DNA of 64,000 nucleotides from Acidimicrobiales bacterium (GTDB taxonomy: Bacteria > Actinomycetota > Acidimicrobiia > Acidimicrobiales > Palsa-688). Shown one piece after another: positions 2,897 through 5,992 of this stretch. The position numbers and the translations under genes are program-made. The stretch lies in assembly GCA_035533095.1 (NCBI GenBank), contig DATLUM010000011.1:1-64000 (forward strand), written 5' to 3'. Under the pieces are notes generated by a model. It was not told where the DNA came from, searched no databases, and saw only the letters and a program-made list of their open reading frames with translations. The first letter of the stretch is position 1; every line of letters starts with the position of its first letter.

Positions 2897-4069
2897 ATGG
2901 CCGGTGTCGAGTCGCAGACTGATCCCAACACTGGGGCAACGGAGAGTGGCGACAAAGCGCCCGTGGGCGGACATACCGGCCTGTCGCGGTACGCCGTCCT
3001 CGGCCGCCGGCGATGGGTGGCCATAGCGGCTATCGCGGGCACGATCGGCGCGCTGGCCGGCGCCGGGGTCGGGGCGATCGTCGCCACTGCGATCGCCGGC
3101 CACGACACCACGACGGTCATCCACCAGGCGCTGCCCCCGCCCGCCCGCCTCTCCCAGGTCAACGACGTGCCCACCATCCTTGCGGCCGTCGAGCCGGCGG
3201 TCGTCTCTATCACCACCGACCAGGGGGAAGGTACCGGCATGGTGATCACCGCGAACGGCGACGTCGTCACCAACTATCACGTGGTCGCCGGAGCCAACTA
3301 CATCCACGTCAGCCTTTACCACCGGGCCGGGTCCGTGAACGCCTACCTCACCGGTTACGACGAGGACAACGACATCGCGCTTCTACACGTACCCGACGTC
3401 TCCAACCTGGCGACGGTCGTGCTCGGCGATTCCTCGCAGGTGCGTGTCGGGGACAATGTCATCGCAGTCGGCAACGCGCTCAACCTTCCCGGCGGCCCGT
3501 CCGCGACGACCGGGATCGTGTCTGCGCTGGGGCGGACCATCGGAGGCACGACGCTCACCGCCGGCGAGCTCGTCCCCCCGAACCTCATCCAGACGGATGC
3601 GGCGATCAACCCGGGCAACTCCGGCGGGCCCCTGCTTGACGCAGCGGGCGACGTGATCGGGATGAACACGCTCGTCATCCAGCAGGCCAACGACACCGAG
3701 GCCGCTCAGGGTCTCGGGTTCGCGATCCCGATCAACACGATCAAGTCGCTGATCCCGACCCTCAGGAAGGGGTCGAAGGTGGCACCGACGGAGCTCGGGA
3801 TCTCGATGCAGGACAACACCCCGCAGCTCGCAGCCCAGTACGGCTTCACGACCACCACCGGGGTGATCGTGTCGCAGGTCCTCGTCGACTCGCCGGCGTA
3901 CGACGCGGGGATGCAGGCGTACGACGTGATCGTGTCGTTTGCCGGCCAGCAGGTCACCAGCAGTGCCGCGCTGATAGCGCTGCTCGCAGGGCACTCGCCC
4001 GGGCAGCGGGTGAGCATCACGGCGCTGCGCGGTTCGGTGACGGAGCACTTCGCGTTGACCCTCGGATGA
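2897..4069 (+). CDS. HtrA/DegP-type serine protease with PDZ domain
   Basis: Membrane-anchored S1C protease for envelope protein quality control. In order, the 390 residues show a charged cytoplasmic N-terminus, one membrane helix (about 40-66), a trypsin-like domain (about 90-275) and a C-terminal PDZ domain (about 295-388). The catalytic triad is complete: His128 in TNYHVV, Asp159 in DNDIALL and Ser242 in GNSGGPLL. The membrane helix at the N-terminus places the protease outside the cell. The ATG at 2897 is the only good start. The gene is followed by the leuA leader. A degenerate homologue without the triad is encoded at 12056-13288. Confidence 0.93.
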   Translation: MAGVESQTDPNTGATESGDKAPVGGHTGLSRYAVLGRRRWVAIAAIAGTIGALAGAGVGAIVATAIAGHDTTTVIHQALPPPARLSQVNDVPTILAAVEPAVVSITTDQGEGTGMVITANGDVVTNYHVVAGANYIHVSLYHRAGSVNAYLTGYDEDNDIALLHVPDVSNLATVVLGDSSQVRVGDNVIAVGNALNLPGGPSATTGIVSALGRTIGGTTLTAGELVPPNLIQTDAAINPGNSGGPLLDAAGDVIGMNTLVIQQANDTEAAQGLGFAIPINTIKSLIPTLRKGSKVAPTELGISMQDNTPQLAAQYGFTTTTGVIVSQVLVDSPAYDAGMQAYDVIVSFAGQQVTSSAALIALLAGHSPGQRVSITALRGSVTEHFALTLG

Positions 4070-4082
4070 CCCTCATCCTCGG

Positions 4083-4111
4083 GTGACGGGGCACCTGGGG
4101 CGTGATACCCT
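4083..4111 (+). promoter_or_regulatory. Promoter of the leuA leader transcript
   Basis: GTGACG (4083-4088, -35-like) and TACCCT (4106-4111, -10 of TANNNT type) are 17 bases apart. The -10 ends 7 bases before the GTG of the leader peptide, so transcription would begin at that codon and the peptide would be translated from a leaderless RNA. Confidence 0.55.
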
Positions 4112-4118
4112 CTCTTTC

Positions 4119-4169
4119 GTGACCGCGCAGCCCAAACTCTTGACCGCCGGCCTCCTCCTTCTCATGTAG
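4119..4169 (+). CDS. leuL: leuA leader peptide (leucine-rich, 16 residues)
   Basis: Regulatory peptide whose translation senses charged tRNA-Leu. GTG to TAG encodes MTAQPKLLTAGLLLLM: six leucines in 16 residues, four of them in a row just before the stop. The run ends directly at a 10-bp hairpin, followed by a T-tailed terminator and then leuA. A stalled ribosome at the four Leu codons would cover or release the downstream RNA segments. Leucine leader peptides ahead of leuA are known in Streptomyces, Corynebacterium and relatives. No Shine-Dalgarno is seen; the -10 spacing implies leaderless translation. Confidence 0.8.
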   Translation: MTAQPKLLTAGLLLLM

Positions 4170-4195
4170 GCGAGCACCACATACCGGTGCTCGCC
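4169..4195 (+). promoter_or_regulatory. Attenuator hairpin after the leuA leader peptide
   Basis: Arms GGCGAGCACC (4169-4178) and GGTGCTCGCC (4186-4195) form a perfect 10-bp stem around a 7-base loop. The 5' arm begins within the leader stop codon, so a ribosome that finishes the peptide would block this stem while one stalled at the Leu codons would leave it free. It precedes the terminator by 4 bases. Confidence 0.65.
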
Positions 4196-4199
4196 GAAG

Positions 4200-4231
4200 C
4201 CTCCTGCGCCCCCGGGCCGGGAGGTTTTTTT
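4200..4231 (+). terminator. Intrinsic terminator of the leuA attenuator
   Basis: CCTCC (4200-4204) pairs with GGAGG (4220-4224), with further GC pairing possible inside, and seven T follow (4225-4231). It lies between leader peptide and leuA, so read-through is required for leuA expression. The leader's own CCTCCTCC (within 4151-4158) could compete for the same GGAGG arm. Confidence 0.75.
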
Positions 4232-4300
4232 GTTGCCCGACCCGCCCCCGACCGCCGCCCGCCGACCCAGATCCGACCGATATCCCAACGAGGAAATTCG

Positions 4301-5992
4301 ATGCCCGCCTACGCATACCCCACGCCGTGCGACATGCCCTTCGAGAGATACAAGCCCTGCCGGCCGCTGGTGCTTCGGGACCGCACGTGGGCCGATCGCG
4401 AGCTCGACAAGGCGCCCCAGTGGTGCAGTGTCGACCTGCGCGACGGCAACCAGGCGCTCATCGACCCGATGGACCCGCCACGCAAGCTGAAGTTCTTCGA
4501 GACGCTGGTAGGGATGGGCTTCAAGCAGATCGAGGTGGGATTCCCGGCCGCGTCGCAGCCGGACTTCGACTTCATCCGCCAGATAATCGAGGAGGACCGC
4601 ATCCCAGAGGACGTGGTGATCCAGGTGCTGGTGCAGTGCCGCCCGGAGCTGATCGAGCGCACCTTCGAGGCGATCGCCGGCGCTCCGCACGCGATCGTCC
4701 ACTTCTACAACTCGACGTCGACCCTCCAGCGCAAGGTGGTCTTCGGTCTGGACCGGTCGGGCATCGTCGACATCGCGACCAGCGCGGCGCGACTCGTCAA
4801 GAAGTACACCGACACCATCCCGCAGACGCGCGTCAGCTACGAGTACTCACCCGAGAGCTTCACCGGTACCGAGCCGGATTTCGCCGTCGAGATCTGCGAA
4901 GCGGTGATGGAGGTCATCGAGCCGGACAGCGACAACAAGATCATCGTCAACCTCCCCAACACGGTGGAGATGTACGGGCCACAGGTGTACGCCGACGTGA
5001 TCGAGTGGTTCAGCCGGACCATCCGGAACCGTGACTCGATCGTCCTGAGCGTGCACCCCCACAACGACCGTGGCACGGCTGTGGCCGCCGCCGAGCTGGC
5101 GCAGCTCGCGGGTGCCGACCGCGTCGAGGGGACTCTTTTCGGCAACGGAGAGCGGACAGGGAACGTCGACGTGGTGAACCTCGCGATGAACCTCTTCTCG
5201 CAAGGCGTCGACCCCAGGCTCGACATCCACGACATCGACCATCTTCGGCGCGTTGCCGAGTACTGCAACCGCCTGCCGGTCCACCCGCGCCATCCTTACG
5301 TCGGCGACCTCGTCTACACGGCCTTCTCCGGATCCCACCAGGATGCAATCAAGAAGGGCATGGACGCGCTTTCCGATGACTACGAGACCTGGGAGGTCCC
5401 GTACCTGCCGATCGACCCCAAGCACGTGGGGCGTACCTACGAAGCGATCATCCGGGTCAACAGCCAGTCCGGCAAGGGCGGCGTCGCCTATTTGATGGAC
5501 GCGGAGCACGGTCTCGACCTGCCGCGCAACCTGCAGATCGAGTTCTCGAAGAAGGTGCAGGCGATCACCGAGGCCAGCGGCACGGAGATCAAGCCCGGCG
5601 AGCTGTGGGACGTCTTCGCCGAGACGTATCTCCCAGACGACGCGGGCATCAGGCTCATCTCCACCGAGGTTTCCTCGGCGGGGGACAAGCGCACGTCGGT
5701 CGTCGCCCAGGTCCTCGTCGACGGGCACCACAGGACGATCACGGGCAATGGGAACGGCCCTGTCGACGCCTTGGTGCACGGGCTCCAGTCCGAGCTAGGC
5801 GTCGAGCTCGCCGTTGAGGATTACCACCAGCACGCGCTTACCGCCGGAAGCGAGGCGACCGCTGCCGCGTACGTCGAGGTGACAGCGGCTGCAGGTGAGC
5901 GCTTCTGGGGTGTCGGTATCGACTCGAGCACCCTCGACGCCTCTCTCGAGGCCGTCATAAGCGCTGCCAACCGGATCCGGGACGGCAGGTAG
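4301..5992 (+). CDS. leuA: 2-isopropylmalate synthase
   Basis: First committed enzyme of leucine biosynthesis, condensing acetyl-CoA with 2-oxoisovalerate. The 563 residues fit the long actinobacterial LeuA type. The catalytic TIM barrel opens with WCSVDLRDGNQAL, carries the HPHNDRGT metal/active-site motif near residue 250 and GTLFGNGERTGN after it, and ends in a C-terminal regulatory domain (SSAGDKRTSVVAQV onward) that normally binds leucine. The ATG at 4301 is chosen over earlier in-frame codons because GAGGA (4290-4294) is 6 bases upstream and the earlier part covers the terminator. It is regulated by the attenuator just upstream; no other leu gene is in the window. Confidence 0.95.
   Translation: MPAYAYPTPCDMPFERYKPCRPLVLRDRTWADRELDKAPQWCSVDLRDGNQALIDPMDPPRKLKFFETLVGMGFKQIEVGFPAASQPDFDFIRQIIEEDRIPEDVVIQVLVQCRPELIERTFEAIAGAPHAIVHFYNSTSTLQRKVVFGLDRSGIVDIATSAARLVKKYTDTIPQTRVSYEYSPESFTGTEPDFAVEICEAVMEVIEPDSDNKIIVNLPNTVEMYGPQVYADVIEWFSRTIRNRDSIVLSVHPHNDRGTAVAAAELAQLAGADRVEGTLFGNGERTGNVDVVNLAMNLFSQGVDPRLDIHDIDHLRRVAEYCNRLPVHPRHPYVGDLVYTAFSGSHQDAIKKGMDALSDDYETWEVPYLPIDPKHVGRTYEAIIRVNSQSGKGGVAYLMDAEHGLDLPRNLQIEFSKKVQAITEASGTEIKPGELWDVFAETYLPDDAGIRLISTEVSSAGDKRTSVVAQVLVDGHHRTITGNGNGPVDALVHGLQSELGVELAVEDYHQHALTAGSEATAAAYVEVTAAAGERFWGVGIDSSTLDASLEAVISAANRIRDGR

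Follow-up and report, generated by a model that had tools for sequence, protein, structure and literature searches.

The locus in front of leuA in the 64,000-nucleotide stretch of Acidimicrobiales DNA analysed here (the window) raises the question of how a leucine-rich leader can control the gene behind it when the two hairpins that follow the leader have no strand in common. In Actinobacteria, the regulation of leuA and ilvB has been called unclear, with candidate leaders that lack an antiterminator and with codon mutations in Streptomyces that gave an ambiguous outcome (PMC1262725). The best overall explanation of the locus is probably a ribosome-mediated attenuator of leuA that responds to charged tRNA-Leu, in which the first hairpin (hairpin 1) acts sterically.

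All parts of the locus are on the forward strand. The putative promoter of the leader transcript (4083–4111) is formed by a -35-like GTGACG (4083–4088) and a -10-like TACCCT (4106–4111), as read from the sequence. The 17-nt spacing between them, to which an earlier note on this DNA had drawn attention, is present, but the match to the consensus is weak (7/12), and this promoter is not listed by a generic promoter scan of the window. In the relatives, the pattern TTGACA-N16-18-nAnnnT is found with the -10 element ending 6 to 10 nt ahead of the leader start codon; a promoter score of at least 8/12 is reached in 62 of 99 related elements, compared with 85 of 1980 control positions. Because this position is conserved, the leader of the window, whose GTG start codon (4119) follows 7 nt after the -10-like element, is leaderless as judged by position, in support of the same proposal in the earlier note. 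The gene of an HtrA/Do-type serine protease (2897–4069; TIGR02037-like, below the cut-off) ends 13 bases upstream of the -35-like element.

The leader open reading frame (4119–4169) encodes the peptide MTAQPKLLTAGLLLLM, having 16 residues with six leucines, four of them consecutive, and it ends with the stop codon TAG (4167–4169); the regulatory codons CTC CTC CTT CTC are at 4152–4163. Frameshifting at hungry codons, as a way of reading through the leader, was considered by eye; its alternative reading frames are open by GC content alone. Hairpin 1 (4169–4195) begins at the G of the stop codon and has 10 base pairs, formed between GGCGAGCACC (4169–4178) and GGTGCTCGCC (4186–4195). The spacer GAAG (4196–4199), which is able to base-pair with the initial U of the U-run (an extension that is visible in folds), separates it from the core of the intrinsic terminator (4200–4231), in which CCTCCTG (4200–4206), the bulged C4207 and GCC (4208–4210) are followed by the loop, GGC (4215–4217), CGGGAGG (4218–4224) and seven T (4225–4231). 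The distance from the U-run to the ATG of leuA is 69 nt, and the leader, the 10-bp hairpin and the GC stem with its seven T are thus all found where the earlier note had placed them. The product of the regulated gene leuA (4301–5992), 2-isopropylmalate synthase, matches TIGR00970 at 809 bits, above the curated cut-off. In a comparison with 200 shuffles, the RNA spanning the leader and the U-run is more stably folded than 199 of them, and the part with the two hairpins is more stably folded than all of them (z -5.9). A wider stem search finds no convincing intrinsic terminator in the 64-kb window other than that of the leader; a simple consensus terminator scan of the window does not list this terminator, probably because of the bulge.

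The presence of this terminator bears on whether the locus could act at the level of translation, as the LEU element of leuA in other Actinobacteria, where the Leu run pairs with the Shine–Dalgarno sequence of leuA. A Leu-rich leader before leuA is common to the LEU element and the window locus (PMC1262725). This reading is nevertheless very improbable for the window, where a terminator with a U-run is present and the leuA Shine–Dalgarno sequence (GAGGA, near 4290) is outside the attenuator structure; also, the Mycobacterium-like and Streptomyces-like leuA leaders (LLLGRRDGV and LLLLSCRGEGL) differ in sequence and peptide and are without a terminator.

The arrangement seen in the window is conserved. 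A LeuA of the TIGR00970 type is present in 43 of 61 genomes (the source genome and 60 relatives), and in 36 of the 41 leuA upstream regions of relatives the order of the attenuator is kept, being Leu run, stop codon, hairpin, CCTCCTG-Y-GCC...GGC-CAGGAGG and T-run. With a covariance model derived from 32 of the leuA upstream elements, matches are obtained in 214 of 395 genomes from the class Acidimicrobiia (132 of 184 genera) and in 36 of the 296 genomes of a phylum sample, some of these outside the class. Across 99 elements, 97.3% of the cells pair, and two-sided changes are found at 19 of 20 base pairs (10/10 in hairpin 1 and 9/10 in the terminator), compared with 8.8 in shuffles and 6 to 9 in slid controls. 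This 99-element alignment is fitted to the model, and the unfitted alignment of 32 sequences agrees with it for hairpin 1. The peptide and both stems are therefore conserved, and the stems covary, in the alignment of leuA upstream regions that the earlier note had suggested. Given the kept order, the number of matching genomes and the two-sided changes, the leu element is, on comparative grounds, not due to chance. A pattern scan of named genomes finds 102 stretches; among the matches listed (80 of 102), 32 have titles naming taxa of Acidimicrobiia, including Acidiferrimicrobium and Microthrixaceae, and most of the remaining listed matches are from Actinobacteria, a few having other labels. 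In Rfam, no match at the gathering score is obtained for the window or for 10 related loci, and the best matches below this threshold are unrelated sRNAs.

Two further observations concern the sequences of these leaders. The leu terminator (4200–4224 in the window, and its counterparts in the related loci) is nearly invariant in sequence, including the bulged pyrimidine of CCTCCTG-Y-GCC; G-Y-GCC is retained in most leu elements where the arms change, which pairing does not explain, and this invariant bulged motif could be a polymerase pause signal. In four loci of the order, leuA has another leader, with an LLDLRLL-like peptide and a CCCGGCG/CGCCGGG-like hairpin without a T-run, possibly a translation-level element.

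The genes behind the element also point to a function in leucine sensing. In 49 of the 99 elements, the following gene is a LeuA of the TIGR00970 type, in 39 it is the other LeuA type (IFDTTLRDGEQSPG), and among the remaining 11 it is, as read from the sequence, leucyl-tRNA synthetase (leuS) in six cases and acetolactate synthase in three. Several of the leuS-like genes are outside the class, and the leuS genes of near relatives gave no match. The occurrence of two LeuA families in different genomes behind one type of attenuator suggests that the gene was replaced while its control element stayed in place, or that the element was transferred. A sister architecture is found upstream of ilvB in 25 of 30 loci of relatives, including the source genome, where the ilvB leader is MSNKLVLVLIT, followed by the stop codon. 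In this ilvB attenuator, the hairpin ACGCACACGC/GCGTGTGCGT overlaps the TGA, and the terminator CGACCTCCC/GGGAGGTCG has a T-rich tail. Among the relatives, the sequence of the ilvB terminator is conserved as well. All of the 28 ilvB leaders compared have Val or Ile within the last six residues. The leuA and leuS leaders carry Leu runs, while the ilvB leaders, which are of the same design, carry Val/Ile/Leu codons; the codon content of the leader thus follows the function of the gene, and this is the strongest sequence evidence for sensing by a ribosome. Three features of a ribosome-mediated attenuator are found, these being a leader reading frame with end-product codons, an intrinsic terminator before the gene and, by computation, a ribosome-dependent RNA structure; a fourth would be codon-dependent read-through that increases as the amino acid becomes scarce, and in Actinobacteria dependence on the codons is shown for ilvB1 of Mycobacterium tuberculosis (PMC13236596). 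The leu element is thus very probably a ribosome-mediated transcription attenuator, as judged from comparative sequence, which documents the peptide, both stems, their positions and the gene association.

In a classical attenuator, the Leu codons or another upstream strand would pair with an arm of the terminator, generating an antiterminator by means of a shared strand, and pairing of the Leu codons with the GGAGG arm had been proposed in the earlier note. The CTCCT of the Leu run is complementary to the AGGAGG of the terminator, with 94% of cells pairing, but this apparent complementarity stems from the pyrimidine-rich Leu codons being beside a CCTCC/GGAGG terminator. These codons are hidden by a ribosome that stalls on them, so leucine starvation would abolish the pairing, the opposite of what an antiterminator requires. 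Coevolution was assessed by permutation of duplex energies for 28 segment pairs, some very short segments giving unusable energies. The Leu codons of an element pair with its own terminator 3' arm no better than with the arms of other species (z +2.6, which is weaker; 99 elements), and the only clearly maintained pairs are hairpin 1 (z -22.6) and the terminator (z -17.1). In the ilvB versions, which have Val/Ile/Leu codons, the architecture is kept but the CTCCT run is not. Pairing of the 3' arm of hairpin 1 with the 5' arm of the terminator (GGTGC:GYGCC), which fits many sequences, was also considered and rejected, as it does not coevolve (z -1.2) and would act in the wrong direction.

When ribosome footprints are included in equilibrium folding, as the earlier note had suggested, hairpin 1 is predicted to toggle, but the terminator is predicted to form in every ribosome state. 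The terminator of E. coli trpL likewise folds in every state, and the equilibrium test is therefore without power by itself. For this reason, the RNA was truncated before the second terminator arm, and the occupancy of the terminator 5' arm was compared between a ribosome stalled on the regulatory codons and a ribosome at the stop codon, a difference of at least 0.3 being counted as a switch. The stalled and stop values are 0.19 and 0.40 for 98 leu elements and 0.16 and 0.34 for 25 ilv elements. The corresponding values of the E. coli controls are 0.62 and 0.01 (trpL), 0.75 and 0.01 (leuL), 1.00 and 0.01 (thrL) and 0.88 and 0.23 (pheL); hisL, with 0.74 in both states, does not switch in this simple test, which can thus miss a classical attenuator. 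An increase of occupancy on stalling that reaches 0.3 is found in 0 of the 123 elements (98 leu and 25 ilv), and this result is unchanged with ribosome footprint edges of 12 to 18 nt. In these folding calculations, a strand competing for the first terminator arm appears to be absent from the leu and ilv elements, and a shared-strand antiterminator is improbable. The departure from the textbook four-segment layout that the earlier note described is in agreement with these data, the hairpins being without a shared strand; its Leu-codon antiterminator is not.

The geometry of the elements is well preserved. The last regulatory codon and the stop codon are one residue apart in 87 of 95 leu leaders and in 21 of 25 ilv leaders, and hairpin 1 starts at the stop codon, with an offset of -1 in 59 of 95 leu elements and of -2 in 16 of 25 ilv elements. 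Hairpin 1 and the terminator core are separated, helix to helix, by 1 to 6 nt (median 3). In computed folds, a ribosome that has the first Leu codon in its A site gives hairpin 1 a probability of 0.95, and a ribosome at the stop codon gives it one of 0.00, such that the position of the ribosome is predicted to toggle it. Exact abutment, with 0 nt between the helices in minimum-energy folds, is only modestly more frequent than with random spacers (0.60 versus 0.41 for leu, 0.32 versus 0.29 for ilv), and the claim is therefore limited to short spacing without overlap. Short spacing without overlap is also seen in 11 ilvB leaders from outside the class, some of which have peptides with LVVI, as in Mycobacterium, or with MRTRILVLGKRVG, as in Streptomyces; there, the hairpin of the stalled state stops 0 to 1 nt short of the terminator stem.

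A mechanism consistent with this geometry can be proposed as follows. RNA polymerase would start at or next to the GTG, and the ribosome would load directly on the 5' end. When leucine is ample, the ribosome would reach the stop codon and cover the 5' arm of hairpin 1, which stays open; with its 3' arm single-stranded, the terminator, 30 nt further on, could close fully, and transcription would end before leuA. When leucine is scarce, the ribosome would wait on the Leu codons with its front edge just short of the stop codon, allowing hairpin 1 to form. Hairpin 1, backed by the stalled ribosome, would then place a rigid helix at the base of the terminator stem, and the last terminator pairs could be kept from closing; closure being hindered in the RNA exit channel, the polymerase would read through into leuA. 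As hairpin 1 forms on starvation, a device of the usual sign requires that this hairpin promote read-through, and as it shares no base with the terminator, we infer that it causes antitermination by abutment. This steric step is put forward tentatively, with the chances somewhat below even. In a literature search by title and abstract, no experiment was found in which a hairpin abuts a terminator and blocks it, and we know of no experiment showing such a block.

It is conceivable, though unlikely, that hairpin 1 is instead a polymerase pause hairpin, which synchronises ribosome and polymerase, with the G-Y-G bulge about 12 nt downstream as the pause site and with antitermination as a later kinetic step. 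Polymerase pausing for coupling is established for the trp and his leaders, and a leader of only about 90 nt would need a pause for coupling. The bulged pyrimidine of the window is 12 nt past hairpin 1, and the G-Y-GCC that is kept as the arms change would suit a pause site, but the ilvB terminators of the same genomes are without the G-Y-G motif, and a pause alone leaves the read-through on stalling without explanation. Equally unlikely is a switch by ribosome proximity, in which the formed hairpin 1 shortens the path and the stalled ribosome itself blocks the terminator, which works when the ribosome is at the stop codon about 30 nt away. In E. coli, a terminator is repressed by the ribosome when it lies shortly after the stop codon, and termination is full at distances above about 27 nt (PMC4824070). 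The distance between the stop codon and the terminator stem (median 26 nt for leu and 29 nt for ilv; 30 nt from the leader stop to the terminator core in the window) is too great for a ribosome at the stop codon to be expected to repress the terminator itself. Once hairpin 1 has folded, about 18 nt of free RNA are left in the window between the A site and the terminator, by count. The experimental setup in E. coli had no intervening hairpin, however, and a 10-bp helix still takes up some length. The proximity and pause-hairpin models are live rivals of abutment.

More widely, and with somewhat less confidence than for the steric step in the leu element itself, it may be that branched-chain amino acid attenuators across Actinomycetota act by steric antitermination, in which a ribosome-gated hairpin abuts the terminator, without a shared strand, and prevents its closure. 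If true, this would be a switch principle different from strand competition, and the rule for recognising attenuators would change, since the leu and ilv elements would escape any search in which a shared strand is required. The family described here, supported by covariation, is found in most sampled genera of one class, before two LeuA families, leuS and ilvB, with a fixed geometry and no strand competition, and it turns the leuA/ilvB puzzle into the defined question of whether an abutting hairpin alone can block an intrinsic terminator.

Leader-peptide control of branched-chain amino acid genes is known in Actinobacteria (PMC1262725, PMC4046766, PMC8079986), and for leuA, to which the earlier note referred, the known form is the LEU element. 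A search of the available literature for Acidimicrobiia together with attenuation and leader peptides found no paper. The attenuators of Enterobacteria (trpL, leuL, thrL, pheL and hisL) are alike in having regulatory codons, a ribosome-sensitive hairpin and a terminator before a biosynthetic gene, but their antiterminator takes the 5' strand of the terminator (4 of 5 controls), whereas the hairpins of the leu element share no strand, and its leader, unlike theirs, is leaderless. The actinobacterial ilvB attenuators of Corynebacterium, Mycobacterium and Streptomyces (PMC1262725; ilvB1 of Mycobacterium tuberculosis, PMC13236596) are closer, with a branched-chain amino acid leader, leaderless in several cases, and a hairpin directly followed by the terminator. 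The layout without overlap is also that of the 11 ilvB leaders from other classes; in Mycobacterium-like and Streptomyces-like leaders, the end of the reading frame reaches into the hairpin strand and the stop codon is further downstream. In the literature, the actinobacterial ilvB attenuators are described as mutually exclusive structures. For ilvB1 of M. tuberculosis, codon dependence of the attenuator is supported by experiment, as the change of LVVI to AAAA abolishes induction, and its authors describe a terminator and an antiterminator that are mutually exclusive (PMC13236596). The Streptomyces leuS attenuator LeuL2 (MRAVRLLLSEPR; PMC8079986, PMC1262725) is similar in its leaderless Leu leader, hairpin, U-run and Leu-tRNA synthetase gene; its peptide ending differs, it does not precede leuA, and its authors describe antiterminator and terminator hairpins. 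The LEU element of leuA (PMC1262725) has the Leu-run leader before leuA in common with the window element, but it has a pseudoknot, sequestration of the Shine–Dalgarno sequence and another peptide and sequence, and it lacks the terminator that the window element has. The leu element, for which there is no Rfam family, is a transcription-terminating version of branched-chain amino acid leader control with a conserved sequence.
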